Origin: Phycisphaeraceae bacterium
GTDB taxonomy: Bacteria > Planctomycetota > Phycisphaerae > Phycisphaerales > UBA1924
Direction: 5' to 3'
Assembly (NCBI GenBank): GCA_026126305.1
Contig: JAHCJI010000005.1
Coordinates: 1-64,000, forward strand
Length of the DNA stretch: 64,000 nt
Positions 19,947-59,699 of the stretch are shown here, in pieces. Every line of letters begins with the position of its first letter. Position 1 is the stretch's first letter. The position numbers and the translations under genes are program-made. The notes beneath the pieces are model-generated. The model saw only the letters and a list, made by a program, of their open reading frames with translations, was not told where the DNA came from and made no database searches.

Positions 19947-21251
19947 ATGATCAAAGACCTCGCATCGCATCGGGCATGGCTGAGCGCCATGGGTATGACG
20001 GTCTTGGGCTGTGGCATGTCGGCCCAAGCCCAGAGCGAGTTCCACCCATTGGGCTTTCTGCCCGGCGGCGGCACAAACACCACGGCTTCGAGCATCAGCA
20101 ACCTTGCCCTGGCCGGTGGAAGAGTCGATCAAGTCGTCATCGCTGGCAACGGCGATGGCCCACGCGGTCGTGAAGCCTTCCGATGGACTCTGGCCGATGG
20201 CATGATCGGACTGGGCAATCTGGGTGGTGGCTTCGCATTCAGCAACGCAACCGGCGTCAGCAGCGACGGCACGTACATCATCGGCGGCGCTGCGGCCTTG
20301 CTGGGCATCGAGGCGTTCCGTTGGAGCATCGATTCCGGCATGATCGGCCTGGGCGACCTGCCAGGCGGACCCTTCCGCAGCGAAGCGAACGGGATCAATG
20401 GCGATGGAACCATCGTCGTGGGCGCGAGCAGATCCGTCTTTGGTCCCTTTGGCGATGAAGCGTTTCTCTGGACCGAAGCGGGCGGCATGATCGGCTTGGG
20501 CACTCTGGTGGGCTTCGATGGTTTCTCCAGTGCGGAAGCCATCAGCGATGATGGACTGGTCGTCGTCGGATCATCGGGCTTCGACGTGGAATCGGCACTC
20601 CCCTTCCGCTGGACACCAACCACGGGCATGGTCGAAATGCCCACGCTGCCATCGCAGGGCCCCAACGGCAACGCCCTGGGCCTGAGCGCCGACGGCCAGG
20701 TCGCCGTCGGCTGGTCCACCGATTCCCGCGGCCAGATGGCCGTGCGTTGGACTGCCGCCGGCATCGAAGAACTGGGCCGCCTTGCCTCCTTCGAAGGCTA
20801 CAAACTTTCGGCCAGCGCCATCACCGACGACCACGCCATGATCGTGGGCTGGGCCGAACGGGGGACCGACCTGATCGCGTGGACGTGGACCGAATCCACC
20901 GGCATGCAGACACTGCACGACACGCTGACCCAGGCGGGCCTGGACCTCGCCGGCTGGCGGCTGGGCCTGGCGCTCGACGTTTCCTTCGACCCACAAAGCG
21001 GCAAGACGGCCATCGTCGGCTCGGGCACCAACCCGATGGGACAGAGCGAGGCCTTCCTGGCCATCATCGACCCCAGCCCGCCCTGCCGCGTCGACCTGGA
21101 CGGCGATGGTGAGGCGACCATCTTCGACTTCCTGCTGTTCCAGACGCTCTTTGACGCGATGGATCCGCGAGCTGACTTCGACGGCGACGGCCTGTTCACC
21201 GTGTTCGACTTCCTGTTCTTCACCACCGCCTTCGCCGACGGCTGTCCTTAA
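19947..21251 (+). CDS. Secreted HAF-repeat protein with C-terminal dockerin-like (GC-type) tag
   Basis: Exported protein of 434 residues. After a signal peptide (WLSAMGMTVLGCGMSAQAQ) come about seven repeats of about 45-60 residues with the HAF signature, for example RWTLADGMIGLGNLGGG and LWTEAGGMIGLGTLVGF. These form a predicted beta-propeller on the cell surface. Residues from about 372 form two Ca-binding-like loops, DLDGDGEATIFDFLLFQ and DFDGDGLFTVFDFLFF, ending ADGCP. This is the C-terminal tag shared with three other proteins in the window. The function of HAF proteins is unknown. Confidence 0.88.
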   Translation: MIKDLASHRAWLSAMGMTVLGCGMSAQAQSEFHPLGFLPGGGTNTTASSISNLALAGGRVDQVVIAGNGDGPRGREAFRWTLADGMIGLGNLGGGFAFSNATGVSSDGTYIIGGAAALLGIEAFRWSIDSGMIGLGDLPGGPFRSEANGINGDGTIVVGASRSVFGPFGDEAFLWTEAGGMIGLGTLVGFDGFSSAEAISDDGLVVVGSSGFDVESALPFRWTPTTGMVEMPTLPSQGPNGNALGLSADGQVAVGWSTDSRGQMAVRWTAAGIEELGRLASFEGYKLSASAITDDHAMIVGWAERGTDLIAWTWTESTGMQTLHDTLTQAGLDLAGWRLGLALDVSFDPQSGKTAIVGSGTNPMGQSEAFLAIIDPSPPCRVDLDGDGEATIFDFLLFQTLFDAMDPRADFDGDGLFTVFDFLFFTTAFADGCP

Positions 21252-21432: not shown

Positions 21433-22557
21433 TTAGCAACCCGCAGCAAACTCGTTCTGGAAGGCCAGGAAGTCGAAGATCGTGAGTTGGCCATCGCCGT
21501 CAAAGTCGGCCCGGCGATCGCCCGCGGCAAAGGCGTTCTGGAACGCCAGGAAGTCGAAGATCGTCAAGCGGCCATCGCCGTCGAAGTCGGCCCGGCAAGG
21601 CACGCCACCATCGATCGGCCCGCCACGCACGGTGTCCACTTCGGTGATGTTCTCGAGCCCGTTGGTACCAAACTCGCTGCGACCGTCGGGCCCGGGGTTG
21701 GGCGAGCCGGCCTCTTCTTTGCTGTACTTGTCGTTCCAGCGGTAGTTCTGCGGGTCCTTGGGGCCTCCCTTGTTCGCCTCGATGTCGAACGAGCCGAGCG
21801 TACGCAGGTCCTGCTGGGTAAATCCCAAAGCGCCGTAGTCGACGGCGAACTCCACGACGGTGTTGTCGGTGGGGCTCAGACGCACGAAGAGCACACGTTG
21901 GCCGGTGGCGTGCAGCACGCCGTCGCCGATGATGTCCGAATCGTACCCGTTCAACCCGCTTTCCTCGTCGGGGTTATCGCTCTTGGTCACGGCGCGACCG
22001 GTCCGGCCCCTTCGATCGGCACCGCCCACGTCGCCGTTGGTGTCGCGGTAGCCGAACGTACCCAGCGTTCCGAAACGTGTCACGGGGTCGATCTTCAGTT
22101 CGGGCTGGTCGGCAACCAGCAGCACACCGAATCTCCCATCGGGATCGGTGCTGATCGAGAAGCCGTAGCGTTCGATCAGGCCCATCTCGTTGCGGTCACC
22201 GCCGGAAGTGAGGTGGTCGCGACCGGCGAGTTTGATGGCCACGTACAAGTACCTCTCGTCGAAGCCGGCACGCACCTGGGCGATGTCGATGTACTCGAGG
22301 TACTCCTTGGCCCCAAAGCGGCCGTGGAAGAAATCGAAGGCCGAGGTCATCGGCCTCTCGTACACGTCCTGCTGGTAGATGTCGCAACCCGCGTCGACGT
22401 CCCAGCGCAGTTCGCCATCGGGACCGACGTACCGATTATCACTGGTGACGCAGTCGATGAACGTCGTGGTGTACACGGGCTCGCCCGGCGTGGCCAACGC
22501 TTGCCCGACCAACGCGGCCAGGGCTCCGGCAACCGGGATGATGCTCTTGCTCTGCAT
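21433..22557 (-). CDS. Secreted protein with C-terminal dockerin-like (GC-type) tag
   Basis: Exported protein of 374 residues. The signal peptide is MQSKSIIPVAGALAALVGQA then LATPGEP. The body contains DIAQVRAGFDERYLYVAIKL and VEFAVDYGALGFTQQDLRTL, resembling the sugar-binding DOMON/CBM9-like sandwich in surface proteins, a tentative reading. The C-terminus has two tag repeats (DFDGDGRLTIFDFLAFQNAF and DFDGDGQLTIFDFLAFQNEF) and ends AAGC. ATG at 22557 has AGGAGA upstream. It lies 116 bp after the subtilase stop on the same strand. Confidence 0.85.
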   Translation of the reverse strand: MQSKSIIPVAGALAALVGQALATPGEPVYTTTFIDCVTSDNRYVGPDGELRWDVDAGCDIYQQDVYERPMTSAFDFFHGRFGAKEYLEYIDIAQVRAGFDERYLYVAIKLAGRDHLTSGGDRNEMGLIERYGFSISTDPDGRFGVLLVADQPELKIDPVTRFGTLGTFGYRDTNGDVGGADRRGRTGRAVTKSDNPDEESGLNGYDSDIIGDGVLHATGQRVLFVRLSPTDNTVVEFAVDYGALGFTQQDLRTLGSFDIEANKGGPKDPQNYRWNDKYSKEEAGSPNPGPDGRSEFGTNGLENITEVDTVRGGPIDGGVPCRADFDGDGRLTIFDFLAFQNAFAAGDRRADFDGDGQLTIFDFLAFQNEFAAGC

Positions 22558-22673
22558 GTTTCGTCTCCTGATAGAGTGCCTTTGAGCCGCCGTCGTCGCA
22601 CGCGCGAATGGTTTGGCGGTCATCTATCCGGAGGGAGCTTCCAGGCCCGTGATACGTGAAGTTGAACATTTCT

Positions 22674-23912
22674 TCAAGGCTGGCTGCGTTGGAACGTCAC
22701 GCCGCGAACGACCAGCAACGCATCGAGCCTGCCGGTGCCCAGTTCGCGTTCATAGCCCGGGTTCAGCGCATCGATGTTGATGCTCTGTTGCAGCAGCCGA
22801 TTGCGGACGGTGCTGGCTGGCTGCGCTGGATCGGCCGACCAGTACAGCGCGGCGACCCCGGTCACCAGCGGCGCAGCAAAGGACGTCCCGTCGGCGCGGC
22901 CGTACCCGCCGTCGGGCGTGGTGCTCGTGATGGCAACGCCCGGGGCCGACAAGGCAACATGCTCTCCGTAGTTGCTGAACCAGGCCCGGCGGTCCGTGTC
23001 ATCGGTCGCGGCCACGCCCACCACACCCAGCTCGGGCCTGGCGCTGGGGAAGCGCACCGGGCTTGAAGTGTCCTCGTTGCCCGCGCTCGAGACGATCAGC
23101 ACGCCCTCGGCCCGGGCGTCCATCAGGGCGAAGTCCACGAGCATGGTTTCCTGGGTCGTTCCCATCGAGATGTTCATGAGACGTACCCCACGATCCATCG
23201 CGTAGTACATCGCCTGCACCATGCGGAACGTACTGGTCATGCCATCGGCGTCGAGCGCTTTGAGCGGCAGGATGCGAACCTCGGGCGCGACGCGCACGAT
23301 CAAGCCGGCCACAAGCGTGCCGTGGCCCACGGCTTCGTCGATCAAGCCATTGCCATTCGTATCCAGACCATCCCCGATGTCCCGAAAGTCGTCGGTGCCG
23401 ATCAGAAAGTTCCAGCCTCCAGGCTCGATCCTTCCTAGAAACACCGGATGGGTCGCGTCGAGCCCCGAATCGATGACGGCCACGACCACGCCATGCCCGG
23501 TCGCCGAGCTCCGGGCCGGATCGGCGTGGATGATCGACAAGGCAATCTGCCGCTGGTACGCACCCGAAGTGCTCGCCACGAAGATGCTCTGCGTGCCGGG
23601 GTCGGGGTTGGTGTCGCGTCCGGTATAGTTCGGCTCGGCCCACTCGACGGCCGGATCGAACTCGATGTCATCGACGAACTCTTCCTCGTCGCCCTCGAAG
23701 ACCCGGATGAGGTAGATCGGCCTGGATGGGATGCGATCGAGGATCTCGGTGCCGTACTCGACGCGCCAACGCGCGATGAAGGCCGCCACGTCGGCATCGG
23801 CCACGAAACGCACCACAACCTCGCCCGGCACGACCTTGTCGTCGTCGTCGGCCCGTGCTGCAAGCACGGCCCAGAACAGGAACACACAGAGAACGCAGAT
23901 CTTCCGGGTCAC
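22674..23912 (-). CDS. Exported S8 family serine protease (subtilase)
   Basis: Subtilisin-like protease of 412 residues. The catalytic triad is complete: Asp148 (VVAVIDSGLDATHP), His197 (VGHGTLVAGL) and Ser344 (GTSFAAPLVTG); the oxyanion Asn lies in SSAGNEDTSS. A signal peptide (VTRKICVLCVFLFWAVLAAR then ADDDD) precedes an N-terminal propeptide-like domain (about 25-100). I chose the GTG at 23912: it overlaps the CHAT-gene stop (GTGA), has GGGAGG 7 bp upstream and gives a clean signal peptide. A longer frame starts at 23945. The overlap implies coupled translation with the TPR-CHAT protein, though this protease is exported and CHAT is cytosolic. Confidence 0.9.
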   Translation of the reverse strand: MTRKICVLCVFLFWAVLAARADDDDKVVPGEVVVRFVADADVAAFIARWRVEYGTEILDRIPSRPIYLIRVFEGDEEEFVDDIEFDPAVEWAEPNYTGRDTNPDPGTQSIFVASTSGAYQRQIALSIIHADPARSSATGHGVVVAVIDSGLDATHPVFLGRIEPGGWNFLIGTDDFRDIGDGLDTNGNGLIDEAVGHGTLVAGLIVRVAPEVRILPLKALDADGMTSTFRMVQAMYYAMDRGVRLMNISMGTTQETMLVDFALMDARAEGVLIVSSAGNEDTSSPVRFPSARPELGVVGVAATDDTDRRAWFSNYGEHVALSAPGVAITSTTPDGGYGRADGTSFAAPLVTGVAALYWSADPAQPASTVRNRLLQQSINIDALNPGYERELGTGRLDALLVVRGVTFQRSQP

Positions 23913-26617
23913 TGGATCCCTCCCGTCATTTGCAAAGATGCCCATTGCCACGCCGGGACGCCTTCTTGGATCGCGTCGCGCTGGGCGCGGGCGAGTCCCG
24001 AGGCGATCGACGAAGATGAAACCACGCCAGAGCCGTACAGGCTCTCGAACAGCCGAGATGAGGCCCGATCGTGCAAGGGCCATCGCGACGATACCACGGC
24101 GCTGGCGCCGTGCGTCAGCAACGACCAGACCAGGCCCGTGCGGTCCTCGGTCGATGGTCCACCCGATCGCCCCGACTCGCAGCCGGCAAGCACCAACAGC
24201 GCCCCGGGCCGGACCGACTGTGCCAGCTCAGTGCCCGAGATCCACCGATCGTGCAGTCGCAGCCGAGACGCCAGCGGGTGGCGAGGCGAGTAGACGCAAT
24301 GGGTTGCAAGGTGCGCCACGTCGGCCCGCTCCATCGCTTTGAGCACAACATCGGCCGTCGCGTGCTCGCCCGCAAAGACCTCGCCCAGGCCCCAGGCTCG
24401 GACGGCCTGCGTGGCCTCGACTTCCATCCACGGTGCCAGTCCATCGCGCACGCCGACGGCCATCGCGCTTCCGGTCTTTACCTCGCCCATGCCGCCCAGC
24501 AGCAATCCCGCGCTGACGCCGGGCACCATGATCGGATCCATGCGCTCGATCAGCGGCCGCCCGCCGATGGGCATCGCTGGCCAGGGTGCTTCGCCCAGCA
24601 CGCCCGGAATGCTCAGGCCCACGGTTCGCGCGCCGTCGAGATCGTCCGCCAATGGTTCGAGCAGGCTGGCAGCCAGATCCGCCACGGTCGCTCGCCAGGG
24701 GGCATCGATGTCCACCGGGTCGGCGAGCAGCAGCCCGAGCCTCCCGATCGCACGCGAGACTCCGCTCACCGATGCGAGCGCGCGATGCACGCGTACCCGC
24801 CCGTGACGCAGCACCAGCACGCCCACCGATGGCCCCTCGAGAAAATACAGCAGCATGGCGCTGCCATCGGCAAGGCGCGACTGGCACGCCTCCAGGCACA
24901 ACGGTTGACCAACCAGACGGCGATGTGGCAGCAGCGCATCGGCGCGATCGCTCCAGCGGGCCAGTTCATCCTCGAGTCGAGCGATGCGAGAACGGATCGT
25001 GCCATCGGTATCCGGATTCCCTTCGAGCATCGCGTAGTACACGTTCAGCGCATCGCGAGCGGCCCGCCATTGGTCCCCCGGCCCGTCGGGACGGTCACGT
25101 GGAGACCCCATGGCGTCCAGCAGCGATCGCCCACGCAGCCGCTCGATAGCCTCGAAGGCAAGGGTCAGGTCTCCCGTGTCCAGCGCCCCGGACATCGTGT
25201 CCACGTAAACGTCGCGCCAGCTCTGCCCGCAGGCGATCCGCCAACGATCGGCCCGCAGCGTGCCGCGGATGGTCTCGGCCTCGCGCATCGCCCGTAGCAA
25301 CGATTCGACCGACGCCACCACGTCGCCATCGTCACGGCACAGACGCCCACGCAGGTGGGCCGTGAGCGCGCGCGTGGCGGTCAGACTCCGGGCGGTCGGA
25401 TCGGCTTCGAGCACGTCCAGGTGCATCCGCGCGTGCTCCGGGTGGCCGGCGTCCAACCAGGCGCTGGCGAGCCACCCGTGGGCCCAAGCCAGCCGTGCCG
25501 GGCGGTCGGACAGAGCCGCGCGTGCCCATGCCCAACGCGTCTGGGCCATCGCGTGCTCGCCCGCCTCGATGTCCAGCGCGGCCAGGGCAACCCGGCACTG
25601 GGCCGCCAGCACCGGGTCATCTTCCCCCAGTGCATCGAGCAGACCTTCGAGCACCACCGCCGCCACCTTGGCGTGCTCTCGGCCCGCCATCAGGCACGAG
25701 GCCAGCCCCAGCCGGGCGCGGAGCCCCTCGCGCCGCAGGCCGGCGGACTCAAGCTTCGGCAGGCACTGGCCCAGCGCCAGGATCGCCTCGCGGCGCGCAC
25801 CCAACAACGCGAGCGCTTCGGCGCACTCGGCCTCCAGCCGGGCCGCATCCGCCCCGGCCCCGTGCGATTCGAACCGCTGGCGTGCCCACTCGAAGCGCTC
25901 CAGGGCCGCGTCCAGACGGCCCTCGCGGCTGTATAGGTCGGCCAGGTTGCCCCCAACGATCGCCGCCCCGTGCCCGTTTCCAGCCCGCTCGAAGGCATCC
26001 AACGCGTGCAGGAAGGCCGACTCGGCCTGGGCGAAACGGTCCAGGTCCAGCAACGCCTCGGCCCGGTTGCTCGAGAGCGCTCCCAGGAGCATCGGCTGGT
26101 CGGCCAGCAGGCCCAACGCCCGGTCGAAGGTCGAGATGGCCGCCTCCGGGCGGGCACGCATCCGCTGTACGATACCCAGGTTCAGCAGCGCCTTGCCATG
26201 GCCCAGCGTGTCGCCCTGTCGAGCGAACGCGTCGCGGGCCGACTCGGCGCTCGCCTGCGCCTCGCCCAGCCGACCGGAGCGTGCCAGCGGTTGTACCGCC
26301 GTCAGCCGTACCTGTCCCAACGCCGTGTCGTCCCCGGCCTCGATGGCCGCCCGGCCCGCCTCCTCCAGCAGCGCCCCGGCCTCCTCGAATCGGTTGGCAT
26401 AGCACAGCACGTGGGCCCTAGCCGACAGCAACTCCACGCGCAGCCGCGGATCCTCGCAACGCGCCATCGCGAGACGATCGGCGACATCGACGGCGCGACG
26501 CAGGTCGCCCAACACCAGGGCTTTCAACTCGCCCGCCAGCGCGCGCACGTCCGCGCGGTCGTCCAGCGAGCGCGCATCGGCGAGGAATCCGTCGAGCTGT
26601 TCGAGCAGGGCCGTCAT
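23909..26617 (-). CDS. TPR-CHAT (caspase-like) protein
   Basis: Protein of 902 residues without a signal peptide. Residues 1 to about 480 are helical tetratricopeptide-like repeats, for example ALLNLGIVQRMRARPEAAIS and GNLADLYSREGRLDAALERF. The C-terminal CHAT domain (about 600-902) has the caspase-type dyad His773 (VAHLATHCVYS) and Cys813 (LVLAGCESGRSG). The architecture equals that of the TPR-CHAT protease in type III-E CRISPR systems, but no Cas gene is near. Such proteins cleave a partner after activation through the TPR part. Its stop overlaps the subtilase start; its start is 3 bp after the stop of the unknown gene upstream, which marks it as an operon member. Confidence 0.9.
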   Translation of the reverse strand: MTALLEQLDGFLADARSLDDRADVRALAGELKALVLGDLRRAVDVADRLAMARCEDPRLRVELLSARAHVLCYANRFEEAGALLEEAGRAAIEAGDDTALGQVRLTAVQPLARSGRLGEAQASAESARDAFARQGDTLGHGKALLNLGIVQRMRARPEAAISTFDRALGLLADQPMLLGALSSNRAEALLDLDRFAQAESAFLHALDAFERAGNGHGAAIVGGNLADLYSREGRLDAALERFEWARQRFESHGAGADAARLEAECAEALALLGARREAILALGQCLPKLESAGLRREGLRARLGLASCLMAGREHAKVAAVVLEGLLDALGEDDPVLAAQCRVALAALDIEAGEHAMAQTRWAWARAALSDRPARLAWAHGWLASAWLDAGHPEHARMHLDVLEADPTARSLTATRALTAHLRGRLCRDDGDVVASVESLLRAMREAETIRGTLRADRWRIACGQSWRDVYVDTMSGALDTGDLTLAFEAIERLRGRSLLDAMGSPRDRPDGPGDQWRAARDALNVYYAMLEGNPDTDGTIRSRIARLEDELARWSDRADALLPHRRLVGQPLCLEACQSRLADGSAMLLYFLEGPSVGVLVLRHGRVRVHRALASVSGVSRAIGRLGLLLADPVDIDAPWRATVADLAASLLEPLADDLDGARTVGLSIPGVLGEAPWPAMPIGGRPLIERMDPIMVPGVSAGLLLGGMGEVKTGSAMAVGVRDGLAPWMEVEATQAVRAWGLGEVFAGEHATADVVLKAMERADVAHLATHCVYSPRHPLASRLRLHDRWISGTELAQSVRPGALLVLAGCESGRSGGPSTEDRTGLVWSLLTHGASAVVSSRWPLHDRASSRLFESLYGSGVVSSSSIASGLARAQRDAIQEGVPAWQWASLQMTGGIQ

Positions 26618-26620
26618 GGC

Positions 26621-27217
26621 TCAAGGGCCCGAGCCGGGCCCGACCTCCAACGCGGGCACCACCATCAGCAGGGCGCCCACCCGAACCTCCAAACGAACGT
26701 GATCCACCCCGGGGCCCAACGGCACGCGGACCTCGAAGAAGCCCAGGTTGTCCACGGGCGCTTCGGCCACGACGCCCACGGCCTCGCACCGCACCCTTGC
26801 GCCGGGGTCGATGTCCACGCCAGACACGCGGCCGGTGATGCCATACTCGGCCGCAAGCGCCGCAGGGCCCACGTCGAGACCGGCCGGCAGTTCGGTGGAC
26901 ACCGGCTCGCTGGCGATCGAAAGCCGCACCGTGTGGGCACCGTCCACCATCTCGTCCACCACCTCGTACACCACATGGCGGGTGCCGGGTATCGCCGGCG
27001 AGCCGGATCGGAAGGCCGGACGCATGCCCGCCGAGAGGTCCGCAACCAGCGTGGCAATGGCCTCGATCAGGCCCGGGCGGCGCTCACCCATGGGGCCCCG
27101 GGCTGTGGCCCGGGCAATCCTCGTGAGCACCGCAGCGTCGACGTGGAACAACGCCTCGAGCCTGCCGGCCCGGCCCAACGCGGCATCCAGGTTATCACTG
27201 CCCGAGGGTTCCATCAT
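26621..27217 (-). CDS. Unknown protein between ECF sigma factor and TPR-CHAT protease
   Basis: Protein of about 198 residues of no family I recognise. The N-terminal third is helical (LDAALGRAGRLEALFHVDAA, PGLIEAIATLVADLSAG). A hinge (RPAFRSGSPAIPGTRHVV) leads to a strand-rich C-terminal domain (about 95-190) with VRLSIASEPVSTELPAGLDV and NLGFFEVRVPLGPGVDHVRL, like a small beta-sandwich. No membrane segment or zinc motif is seen, so it is not a classic anti-sigma factor. Start could be ATG 27217, ATG 27214 or an upstream TTG. It is 3 bp from the CHAT gene and 80 bp from the sigma gene. Position makes it a candidate CHAT substrate or sigma regulator; this is inference. Confidence 0.68.
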   Translation of the reverse strand: MMEPSGSDNLDAALGRAGRLEALFHVDAAVLTRIARATARGPMGERRPGLIEAIATLVADLSAGMRPAFRSGSPAIPGTRHVVYEVVDEMVDGAHTVRLSIASEPVSTELPAGLDVGPAALAAEYGITGRVSGVDIDPGARVRCEAVGVVAEAPVDNLGFFEVRVPLGPGVDHVRLEVRVGALLMVVPALEVGPGSGP

Positions 27218-27296
27218 CTCATCCAGAGCACGTCCTACCCGTCCTGATACCAAGGATGCCCCAACAGGTGGAAAATGCCAGCCAAGAGGGAAGCAG

Positions 27297-27845
27297 TCAG
27301 GGTTTCTCCCGATCCATGCCCCCGTACAGCTCCGCCAGCTTTGCAAGGCAACGCTGCCGCGTGGGCCCAATACTGCCCATGGGCATCCCCAGCCGGTCGG
27401 CGATCCCTCGATAATCGGGTGTCGACGCCTCAAAATACAGTGCCCGCAGTAGTTTACGGCACCTGTCACCGAGCCGTTCCAAGGCCGATCGAAGCCTCTG
27501 ATGGTCTTCCAGATCTTCGATGGAGGGTGGGCGATCGTCCGAGGCCGGCTCGATCGTGATGAGCGACCCTTGTCGGGGGCCGTCGGCCTTGCTCCGCCGG
27601 ATGGCCTCGCGCCGGGCCGTGGTCGCCAGCCAGCCGGGCAGAGCCGCCGGCTCGCGCAGGCTCCCCAGGTTGCTCGCCAGGGAGGCGAAGGTGGTCTGGG
27701 CCACGTCCTCGCACGCGTCCTCGGCCAGCCCGCACCGCCGGGCGACGGCGAAGACCAGCCCGCCGTACTCGCGCACGAGGACGCCCCAAGCGGCCTGATC
27801 GCCACCCCGGCAACGCTCCAGCAATAACCCCGGCCCCTCGTCCAT
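27297..27845 (-). CDS. ECF-type RNA polymerase sigma factor
   Basis: Sigma-70 family ECF factor of 182 residues. Region 2 is visible in CRGGDQAAWGVLVREYGGLV and DACEDVAQTTFASLASNL, region 2.4 in LPGWLATTARREAIRRSK, and region 4 in the helix-turn-helix YRGIADRLGMPMGSIGPTRQ RC. No fused C-terminal domain is present. I chose the ATG at 27845 because it fits family length; the frame extends to 27953. It heads the minus-strand set with the unknown protein, TPR-CHAT and subtilase, and no anti-sigma factor of known type is nearby, so control may come through the protease. Confidence 0.9.
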   Translation of the reverse strand: MDEGPGLLLERCRGGDQAAWGVLVREYGGLVFAVARRCGLAEDACEDVAQTTFASLASNLGSLREPAALPGWLATTARREAIRRSKADGPRQGSLITIEPASDDRPPSIEDLEDHQRLRSALERLGDRCRKLLRALYFEASTPDYRGIADRLGMPMGSIGPTRQRCLAKLAELYGGMDREKP

Positions 27846-28059: not shown

Positions 28060-28152
28060 GGTCTTGCTGGCTGGAATCGGCGGCGGGTGTGTTCCCGGTG
28101 TCTTGGCCCATGGCCGTCCAACGCGATGGGGACATTGACCGGAGGGGTTGGT

Positions 28153-28269
28153 ATGCGGGTTTGGCAACGCCCAGTGAAGAAATCTGGAGCTGTGCCCTCG
28201 CCGACAAGTTGCCGCATCGACCTGTTCGATCGGCTGGCCGCCCTGGAGCTTGGCGCGCGTTGCTGGTGA
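28153..28269 (+). CDS. Possible 38-residue leader peptide
   Basis: A short frame with a good ribosome site (GGAGGGG at 28141-28147, 5-6 bp spacing) begins at ATG 28153 and ends TGA at 28269, 29 bp before the secreted-protein start. The peptide (MRVWQRPVKKSGAVPSPTSC onward) has no known similarity. It may be a leader peptide, or the ribosome site may be coincidental in this GC-rich leader. Confidence 0.3.
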   Translation: MRVWQRPVKKSGAVPSPTSCRIDLFDRLAALELGARCW

Positions 28270-28298
28270 TCCGGCGTCCGCTGCAAAGGAGGTACGCG

Positions 28299-29054
28299 AT
28301 GCGTGCGATCTGCGTTTTCTGCTGTGCGATGGTCTGCTTCGCCCTGACGCCCGTGGCGTTCTCGCAGGAGTTTGCCGGCGGCTGGGAGCTTCGTGTGAAG
28401 CAGCACCCAAGCGATGCCGACCCACATGGCATCCTTGAATTGTGGGCTTGGTCGGACAGGACATGTGATGTGGGCGAGATGGTCATCGCGACGGGCGCTC
28501 TCGGACTGGACCTGAGCGCGCCGGTCGTGAGCGAGGCATACGGCGCAGTCTGGACCCGGTGCAAGATCTTTCACTTTACGCAACCTTACTGTCAGTTTGG
28601 AATTGCTGCTAATCCACCGATGGCATATGGAACCCGCGTGACCGATTTTAACTTCATGCAGACCTTCGGTGGAGATGTGCGCGAGCAGACTCTCTATTAT
28701 GACAATCCAATTTATGTGATGGATATTGTCATGAGATTTTCCGATTTGACTCCACAGGATGTCGTGATCACTACAAGAACTTATGCGATGTCAACGACTT
28801 GCGTCCACGAGGGCATGGCTCCGTTTCCGATCCTTGCGAATCCGTACGTTGAGCATGAAGTCATCGTTCATGTCAACGGCACCCCCTGCCGCGCCGACAT
28901 TGATGGCGATGGCGAGCTGACCATCTTCGACTTCCTGGCCTTCCAGAACCTCTTTGCCCAGGGCGACCCGGCCGCCGATTTCGACGGCGACGGCGAGCTG
29001 ACGATCTTCGACTTCCTGGCCTTCCAGAACGAGTTCGCGCTGGGCTGCGACTGA
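28299..29054 (+). CDS. Secreted protein with C-terminal dockerin-like (GC-type) tag
   Basis: Exported protein of 251 residues. The signal peptide is MRAICVFCCAMVCFALTPVA then FSQE. The middle (about 24-190) is strand-rich and Cys-containing (RVKQHPSDADPHGILELWAW, FHFTQPYCQFGIAANPPM), perhaps a cohesin-like or PKD-like sandwich, unknown. Codons in 28600-28800 are more AT-rich than the tag region. The tag repeats DIDGDGELTIFDFLAFQNLF and DFDGDGELTIFDFLAFQNEF end at GCD. The ATG at 28299 has AAAGGAGG 6 bp upstream. A promoter and terminator frame the gene, so it is probably monocistronic. Confidence 0.85.
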   Translation: MRAICVFCCAMVCFALTPVAFSQEFAGGWELRVKQHPSDADPHGILELWAWSDRTCDVGEMVIATGALGLDLSAPVVSEAYGAVWTRCKIFHFTQPYCQFGIAANPPMAYGTRVTDFNFMQTFGGDVREQTLYYDNPIYVMDIVMRFSDLTPQDVVITTRTYAMSTTCVHEGMAPFPILANPYVEHEVIVHVNGTPCRADIDGDGELTIFDFLAFQNLFAQGDPAADFDGDGELTIFDFLAFQNEFALGCD

Positions 29055-31129: not shown

Positions 31130-31502
31130 GAGTGGGCTCCTGTGTTCGATGGTGCGTGGTTGGCGGGCAGTACGTGCCGAGCCGCCGACGGCCGAGTGTT
31201 CGCGCTGTCCATGACAAACGCTCCACGGGGGGCCACGCGCCCAAAAAACGTCCACGAGCGGGCGACCCGGATGAAAGATCCCGCCCGACCACAACGGCCG
31301 GGCCTGCCCTGTCATCGTGCGTTCCCGGACGCGACTTTCGTTGGGTCCAGGAATTTTTTCAACATTTTTGTACCGAACAGAATATCAACCGCCCGGATGG
31401 ACGCAAAACCCGCCATTTGATCGCCCGATGTTCGGAAAAACCCCTCTGGCGCCCGCGCCAGAGGGGTCGATGGTCCGAAAAGTAGCGCGAAAAATCCCAG
31501 AA
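31130..31502. other. Upstream region of paralogue A with conserved element
   Basis: No gene is seen. At 31343-31362 lies GGGTCCAGGAATTTTTTCAA, preceded by GCGACTT at 31331. A close copy of this arrangement lies upstream of paralogue B at 59208-59227. A short inverted repeat (CCCCTCTGGCGC / GCGCCAGAGGGG, 31441-31468) sits just before the 21-bp array. Confidence 0.55.
31441..31468. terminator. Strong hairpin next to array 1
   Basis: CCCCTCTGGCGC and GCGCCAGAGGGG form a perfect 12-bp stem with a 4-base loop (CCGC). It is flanked by AAAAA on the left and no T-run on the right, so on the minus strand it would be followed by TTTTT and act as a terminator for transcription coming from the array side. 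Confidence 0.6.
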
Positions 31503-31710
31503 TGCGCGCGCATACTGGCGTTTTGCGCGCGCAAACTGAGAGTTTTCGCGCGCATCCTGGCGTTTTGCGCGCGCATTCTGAGAGTTTTCGCGCGCATACT
31601 GGCGTTTTGCGCGCGCATTCTGAGAGTTTTCGCGCGCATCCTGGCGTTTTGCGCAGGTATTCCAGCGTTTTGCGCAGGGGTTCTGGCGTTTTGCGCAGGG
31701 GTCCTGACGG
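31503..31710. repeat. Array 1: tandem repeat with 21-bp period
   Basis: About ten units of exactly 21 bp. Units alternate between GCGCGCATACTGGCGTTTTGC and a variant ending CTGAGAGTTTTC, then change to a GCGCAGGGGTTCTGGCGTTT form. The period equals two turns of B-DNA and seven codons, so all frames stay open across it. No signal peptide, start site or known protein repeat supports translation. It belongs to the same sequence family as array 2, in the opposite orientation. Confidence 0.9.
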
Positions 31711-31774
31711 CGGGCGCGGGCACGCCCGGGGCCATGGGCGATCGTTCCCGAACCCCGATGCCCAATGCCCCCGC

Positions 31775-37378: not shown

Positions 37379-37477
37379 GCGGCCGGGGTTCGTGGGTGTC
37401 GGGGCTTGTGCAGATTGCCAACCGGAGCTTCCGTACATAGACCAAAAGTCTAATGCTCTGGGTGTGCCCGCGGACAC

Positions 37478-37712
37478 CGCCAGAACCCCTGCGCATCCGG
37501 ACAAGACCCATGCGCAAAACGCCAGTACCCCTGCGCAAAACGCCAGAATACCTGCGCATAACGCCAGAACCCCTGCGCAAAACGCCAGAATACCTGCGCA
37601 TAACGCCAGAACCCCTGCGCAAAACGCCAGAACCCCTGCGCATAACGCCAGAATACCTGCGCAAAACGCCAGCATGCGCGCGCATTCTGAGAGTTTGTGC
37701 GCATATTGGGAG
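37478..37712. repeat. Array 2: tandem repeat with 21-bp period
   Basis: Units start at 37478, 37499, 37520 and every 21 bp to 37667. The consensus is CGCCAGAACCCCTGCGCAAAA, alternating with CGCCAGAATACCTGCGCATAA. It is the reverse complement of the GCGCAGG-type units of array 1. At 37672-37695 the array flips to a forward-type unit (GCGCGCATTCTGAGAGTTT). All frames stay open because the period is seven codons; I see no evidence of translation. Confidence 0.9.
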
Positions 37713-59418: not shown

Positions 59419-59521
59419 ATCCGTTCGCATCATGTTCGATAAAACCCGCCCCACACGCTCCCAGGCCGGTTGCCGCCTGCGAAGCAACGTCCAATCACGC
59501 GAATGCAGAAGAGAAAAACAG

Positions 59522-59699
59522 TTCTGCTGGAGACTCGCGCAGCACTGCTGAAGACCCGCGCCGTTCTGTTGGAGACTCCCGCAGCACTGCTTTCGTCCCG
59601 CGCAGCACTGTTCCTGGCTCCCGCCGTTCCATTAGAGCCCCGCGCTGCACTGCTTTCGTCTCCCGCGGAACTGTTCCCGTCTCCAGCAGCACCGGTTTA
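59522..59699. repeat. Array 3: tandem repeat with 21-bp period
   Basis: Eight degenerate units of 21 bp, for example TTCTGCTGGAGACTCGCGCAG, CACTGCTGAAGACCCGCGCC and CACTGCTTTCGTCCCGCGCA. Two forms (beginning TTC and CAC) mix along the array. The sequence differs from arrays 1 and 2 but keeps the same period and GCGC-rich core. It ends about 34 bp before the caspase gene start and may overlap that gene's promoter (TACAAT at 59698-59703). Confidence 0.85.

Follow-up and report, generated by a model that had tools for sequence, protein, structure and literature searches.

A sigma factor, anti-sigma-family protein, TPR-CHAT protease and subtilase operon that probably switches genes on by anti-sigma cleavage without CRISPR machinery

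How might a caspase-like CHAT protease serve a bacterial sigma factor where the two are encoded together outside a clustered regularly interspaced short palindromic repeats (CRISPR) system? The question is raised by an operon of Phycisphaeraceae bacterium that lies within the first 64,000 nucleotides of contig JAHCJI010000005.1 (assembly GCA_026126305.1), the whole stretch analyzed here and referred to as the window. The host genome comprises 3.04 Mb on 22 contigs and is 98% complete, and its relatives belong to the Phycisphaerales. The operon encodes an extracytoplasmic function (ECF) sigma factor, a small second protein, a protease combining tetratricopeptide repeats (TPR) with a CHAT domain, and a subtilase. 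CHAT proteases act in type III-E CRISPR defence (PMC10028731, PMC9729208), where Csx29 cleaves Csx30, an inhibitor of CASP-sigma/RpoE (PMC10028731). With this circuit as the precedent, our comparison of sequences suggests that the operon probably switches genes on by cutting an anti-sigma factor, without CRISPR machinery. The four-gene arrangement is widespread in bacteria and apparently undescribed; a literature search found no account of a non-CRISPR operon of sigma, anti-sigma, CHAT and S8 genes, with the main ECF reclassification (10.1093/nar/gkaa1229) lying outside its scope, so that an earlier mention is possible.

The genes are arranged on the minus strand in the order sigma factor, second protein, TPR-CHAT and subtilase, as proposed in an earlier sequence-only reading and borne out by gene calls and domain scans, and all four reading frames are intact. 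The sigma factor (27297..27845, 182 amino acids) matches TIGR02937 over nearly the full model length with 65.0 bits against a cut-off of 42.9, covers the sigma2 and sigma4 regions and also matches Sigma70_r2; its orthologues adjoin anti-sigma and CHAT genes in nearly all loci. The second protein (26621..27217, 198 amino acids) gave no match in a Pfam scan. Family alignments (A1 and A3), a structural model of the window protein and the N-terminal domain of its relatives delineate a shortened helical N-terminus, a conserved Arg loop and a C-terminal immunoglobulin-like (Ig-like) domain. The TPR-CHAT protein (23909..26617, 902 amino acids) is a caspase/separase-like protease that matches PF12770 with 93.2 bits against a cut-off of 24, as well as TPR_12, and both residues of the catalytic dyad previously described as intact, His773 and Cys813, are present. 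The last gene (22674..23912), which begins with GTG, encodes an S8 subtilase of 412 amino acids. The junctions had been given as 80 bp, 3 bp and a GTGA overlap. The 3 bp gap between the second protein and TPR-CHAT and the GTGA overlap between TPR-CHAT and the subtilase hold, whereas the gap between the sigma factor and the second protein measures 79 bp.

Is this block a fixed unit? When 100 related genomes and the host genome were searched for CHAT, 30 gave a match, about 20 of them with long homologues, whose neighbours are nearly always the same sigma gene, a gene for 170–240 amino acids and an S8 gene, arranged as in the window. Scanning 84,980 species genomes yielded 44 loci, 34 of which had enough flanking sequence for the order to be counted; the sigma factor, second protein and CHAT genes follow one another in all 34, with the S8 gene behind them in 31. 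In other branches of the Planctomycetota, covered by a phylum sample and targeted regions, all six sampled loci contain the four genes, the S8 gene being first in three and last in three. A sample of 301 Chloroflexota genomes, prompted by two loci from metagenome-assembled genomes (MAGs) labelled Chloroflexia, also contains the block, with four complete loci and the rest partial or at contig ends. The actinobacterium Nonomuraea gerenzanensis (L106, 2055–6735) shows the order S8, sigma factor, small gene and CHAT, in which the small gene is assigned by position only and is missed by the second-protein profile. Chance is a remote explanation for one gene order shared by tens of genomes, and the neighbourhood expected to be shared with other genomes is indeed kept in both Planctomycetota and Chloroflexota. 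The second-protein profile matches 149 of 392 Planctomycetota genomes, a figure that is not a module count because many of these matches are confined to either the anti-sigma or the Ig portion. In most loci, the CHAT gene begins right at the stop codon of the second gene or close to it, and the end of CHAT mostly overlaps with the beginning of the S8 gene. CHAT matches on Streptomyces plasmids and in Azospirillum were rejected as further members, since the module is lacking around them. Clustering of the flanking genes revealed only a cluster of secreted-protein-like open reading frames (11 loci) and small clusters as recurrent neighbours.

The nature of the second protein emerges from its relatives, most of which are extended at the N-terminus by about 60 residues that show weak zf-HC2 similarity. 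When a profile of 58 sequences was compared with all PDB sequences, the N-terminal part matched RslA, ChrR, RskA, RsiW and DdvA; singly, these matches reach E values of 0.02–0.17, and five anti-sigma factors are found among twelve matches. The RslA entry is chain 3hug_B, labelled 'probable conserved membrane protein', which we take to be RslA. The C-terminus of the profile matches an Ig-like domain of NOMO. The AlphaFold model of one relative (L017), with a mean predicted local distance difference test (pLDDT) score of 89, contains a helical bundle at residues 8–52, and its closest fold in the PDB is that of ChrR in complex with SigE (Foldseek E 3e-3; VIA Z 8.0, residues 1–75). The VIA match has a large root-mean-square deviation and a Z of 8 alone could reflect a common arrangement; it was therefore counted jointly with the sequence matches. 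Of 80 homologues, 14 contain the zinc motif HxxxCxxC, and every one of these belongs to the Chloroflexota set or to MAGs so labelled; the profile also recovers ordinary membrane anti-sigma proteins adjoining other sigma genes. Taken together, the profile matches, the ChrR fold match, the zinc motif and the membrane-bound relatives strongly support the assignment of the second-protein family as an anti-sigma family. It resembles the anti-sigma domain (ASD) and zinc-binding anti-sigma (ZAS) factors ChrR, RskA, RsiW and RslA in the N-terminal domain of the relatives, in its place beside an ECF gene and, for many Chloroflexota members, in the HxxxCxxC motif. In contrast to these factors, it has an Ig-like C-terminus and a loop with an invariant Arg, has no membrane anchor or cupin, and is paired with a CHAT protease gene. 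In several Chloroflexota proteins (L122–L124, L127, L129 and L130), two HxxxCxxC-type stretches are observed, as if the anti-sigma domain were duplicated.

Where would a protease cut such a protein? The alignment of the 58 sequences, with a mean column identity of 20%, contains exactly one invariant column, an Arg that corresponds to Arg70 in the window (codon 27008..27010, minus strand) and Arg110 in L017. The column stays intact on addition of the Chloroflexota homologues wherever the alignment is correct: Arg occupies it in 79 of 80 rows, and a few rows that were visibly misregistered by the automatic addition each contain a nearby Arg within that motif. The Arg is usually preceded by Leu, Phe, Tyr or Val and mostly followed by Gly, Ser or Ala, and it lies within a coil stretch in the models of both the window protein and L017. 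An invariant Arg followed by a small residue in a variable loop is the pattern expected of a conserved protease site. CHAT resembles separase, its closest eukaryotic relative (PMC9729208), an enzyme whose cuts fall strictly behind Arg and within unstructured stretches (PMC10317155). Arg70 is accordingly a candidate P1 residue for a CHAT cut between Arg70 and Ser71, a role that we consider plausible at somewhat under even chances; alternatively, the Arg may serve in docking or have a structural function. A hinge at about residues 80–95 had been suggested as the cleavage site, but this region runs into the first Ig-like strands of the model (E80–88) and has no invariant residue. Since Arg70 is the only family-invariant residue, a cut in the hinge is unsupported.

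The protease itself is well preserved. The catalytic His and Cys are present in all 64 CHAT sequences that cover those columns, and the TPR repeats contain the invariant residues N146 and N224. Asn residues in TPR repeats bind peptides in some TPR proteins. The window CHAT domain matches that of the Craspase TPR-CHAT with an E value of 3.6e-12 and matches separase weakly. The proposed equality with type III-E loci is too strong. The protease is a Csx29 homologue with the TPR-CHAT architecture and the His/Cys dyad, but no likeness of the second protein to Csx30 was detected. The second protein is an ASD/ZAS-family member that carries an Ig-like domain, and its profile found no PDB chain named Csx30 at E ≤ 1, a comparison by sequence profile in which folds were not directly compared. 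In addition, Scalindua Csx30 is cut after Leu407 (PMC9729208), whereas the second-protein family offers an invariant Arg, and the window operon adds an exported subtilase. gRAMP/Cas7-11 is absent: a search of the host genome for the RAMP family (PF03787) gave no match, with the control positive in four known genomes, and a scan of the 64 kb window, to which it was limited, detected no CRISPR-like spaced repeats. The RAMP-free genome and the array-free window support the proposal of a CRISPR-independent system.

The subtilase of the window matches Peptidase_S8 (PF00082) with 138.9 bits, carries a fervidolysin-like prodomain (PF22148) and contains the catalytic motifs; its N-terminus resembles a signal peptide. 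A hydrophobic, signal-like N-terminus is found in 55 of the 57 subtilase rows assessed, in which some loci are counted twice, and the Nonomuraea subtilase is without such a start. Dockerin-like repeats terminate many copies, and NF041540 scored above its cut-off in three of six tested. The signal-like N-termini and dockerin-like tags indicate that the subtilase acts outside the cell in the signal-bearing lineages. The export anticipated by the sequence-only reading is consequently predicted for nearly all Planctomycetota copies, many of them dockerin-tagged, and fits an extracellular output. At three loci (L049, L055 and L060), extra tandem subtilase-like genes lie behind the module subtilase; the weak profile matches in L049 and L060 may stem from shared dockerin tags.

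These observations are consistent with a mechanism in which the second protein, a soluble protein with a helical N-terminus for binding sigma, an exposed loop that bears the invariant Arg, and an Ig-like domain, would hold the ECF sigma factor. TPR-CHAT would be produced beside this protein and in matching proportion, since in most loci its gene begins at the anti-sigma stop codon or close to it. On sensing a signal, the TPR part may activate CHAT, which would cut the loop after the Arg, Arg70 in the window, and thereby separate or destabilize the inhibitor; the sigma factor would then be freed, with the exported subtilase as a linked output. Sigma binding, cleavage, the cleavage site, TPR sensing and the role of the subtilase are all steps that we infer. 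We judge regulated cleavage of the anti-sigma protein by CHAT to be somewhat probable.

Several observations weigh against this mechanism. The proposal that the second protein inhibits the sigma factor agrees with the profiles, fold and zinc motif of the family but fits the window copy poorly: most of the N-terminal anti-sigma domain has been lost there and in a congener (G004), in a further departure from the ASD/ZAS factors. The alignment of the window protein to the family model does not begin until about position 50, and its own model (pLDDT 81.7) shows two short, low-confidence helices before the Ig-like part; a PDB fold search with this model returned only generic beta-sandwich matches, which were set aside. 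The N-terminus is likewise short in the positional Nonomuraea counterpart. The Chloroflexota homologues L125 and L126 retain the Arg motif, yet no CHAT match was found within the 3.4 kb examined. No common promoter motif was detected, as two dyad searches, of 57 and 41 non-redundant upstream regions, did not rise above shuffles. Finally, the CHAT column aligned to Asp2151, the P1-binding residue of C. thermophilum separase, is not acidic and is mostly Arg, Ala, Leu, Ser or Glu. This column was placed through the K670 equivalence (PMC9729208) and the CHAT domain matches described above. The S1 pocket was therefore dropped as support, and the proposed Arg specificity rests on the substrate side. 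The invariant D850 was considered as an S1 acid and was not assignable; E734 and D790, also invariant, were likewise not placed in a pocket. The likeness to separase, securin and Scc1 comprises superhelical repeats joined to a caspase-like protease and an exposed-loop Arg as a candidate cut site, in a bacterial system whose putative substrate is an anti-sigma factor.

The shortened second protein raises an alternative in which the switch has degenerated in this genome, leaving the sigma factor unheld and the operon constitutive or otherwise controlled. Apart from the loss of the domain in the window and in G004, the finding of a long CHAT homologue in only one of the six other searched genomes of the genus is compatible with decay. 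None of the four frames is broken, however; two predicted helices remain, and the protein and its partners retain the Arg, the catalytic residues and the Ig-like domain. Moreover, because G004 keeps the same form beside intact partners, the shortened protein has been maintained, and we regard degeneration as unlikely. Another alternative is a securin-like arrangement, in which the second protein would mainly be an inhibitor or chaperone of CHAT, docking on it through the Arg loop and the Ig-like domain and keeping it off; the sigma factor would then do no more than control operon expression. The stop/start coupling with CHAT and the greater constancy of the Ig-like part and the Arg relative to the sigma-binding part accord with this, as does the binding of securin to separase as a pseudosubstrate (PMC10317155). 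However, securin has a hydrophobic residue in place of the P1 Arg and becomes cleavable once the Arg is restored (PMC10317155), whereas the second protein always has Arg, and most relatives carry the anti-sigma domain. This arrangement seems distinctly unlikely.

The subtilase might instead lie upstream, its extracellular cleavage freeing a peptide for import into the cell, where the TPR part of CHAT would read it. Its conserved linkage in several arrangements and the invariant TPR Asn residues would suit such a relay, but no uptake system is conserved among the flanking clusters, and we consider it improbable. An anti-phage or cell-death module, with CHAT and the subtilase as executioner proteases, is very improbable. 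The part played by CHAT proteases in type III-E defence and the prediction that ECF-coupled caspase systems are conflict systems (PMC8195603) favour it, but the subtilase is unsuited to self-killing because it is exported and often dockerin-tagged, and the flanking clusters contain no recurring defence gene. PADLOC gave only general subtilase, TPR and CHAT resemblances, on which grounds a defence assignment was rejected.

The preferred reading, cleavage of the anti-sigma protein by CHAT, has parallels in other circuits. CalpL-CalpT-CalpS is a type III CRISPR system of a Lon-SAVED protease, an anti-sigma factor and a sigma factor, in which cyclic oligoadenylate activates the protease. It likewise frees an ECF sigma factor through a soluble protease that cuts an anti-sigma factor, but its CRISPR-bound, oligoadenylate-activated protease is unrelated to CHAT. 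EACC2 caspase systems couple a caspase-fold protease to an ECF sigma gene and a DUF1822 TPR protein (PMC8195603), a similar coupling; as described, they consist of the EACC2 core with variable C-terminal domains and no anti-sigma/CHAT/subtilase quartet (PMC8195603).

The surroundings of the operon contain further features. Fifty bp downstream of the subtilase on the same strand lies a gene for a GC-type dockerin protein (21433..22623, minus strand; NF041540, 50.9 bits), weakly proposed as a possible fifth, lineage-specific operon gene. A second GC-type dockerin protein (28089-29054, plus strand) flanks the operon on the other side, and a dockerin-like motif pair also occurs at 19947-21251 (plus strand). 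Three tandem-repeat arrays (31463-31714, 37446-37697 and 59504-59608) share a 21-nucleotide period and differ in sequence; the first, apparently intergenic, alternates CGCGCGCATNCTGGCGTTTTG and CGCGCGCATTCTGAGAGTTTT.

If the cleavage mechanism is correct, protease-controlled sigma release by a relative of caspases and separase would be a widespread bacterial signalling device and no CRISPR oddity. The system would be compact, with a predicted substrate and a single predicted cut site, and would bear on how type III-E CRISPR systems gained their protease-sigma arm, as well as on what CHAT proteases cut in nature, where few substrates are known. A bolder and doubtful extension is that the CHAT family is Arg-specific in the manner of separase, with a dedicated soluble anti-sigma substrate cut at one invariant Arg, and that this CRISPR-free switch, whose range takes in two phyla or more, may represent an older type of circuit out of which the type III-E CRISPR CASP module was built.
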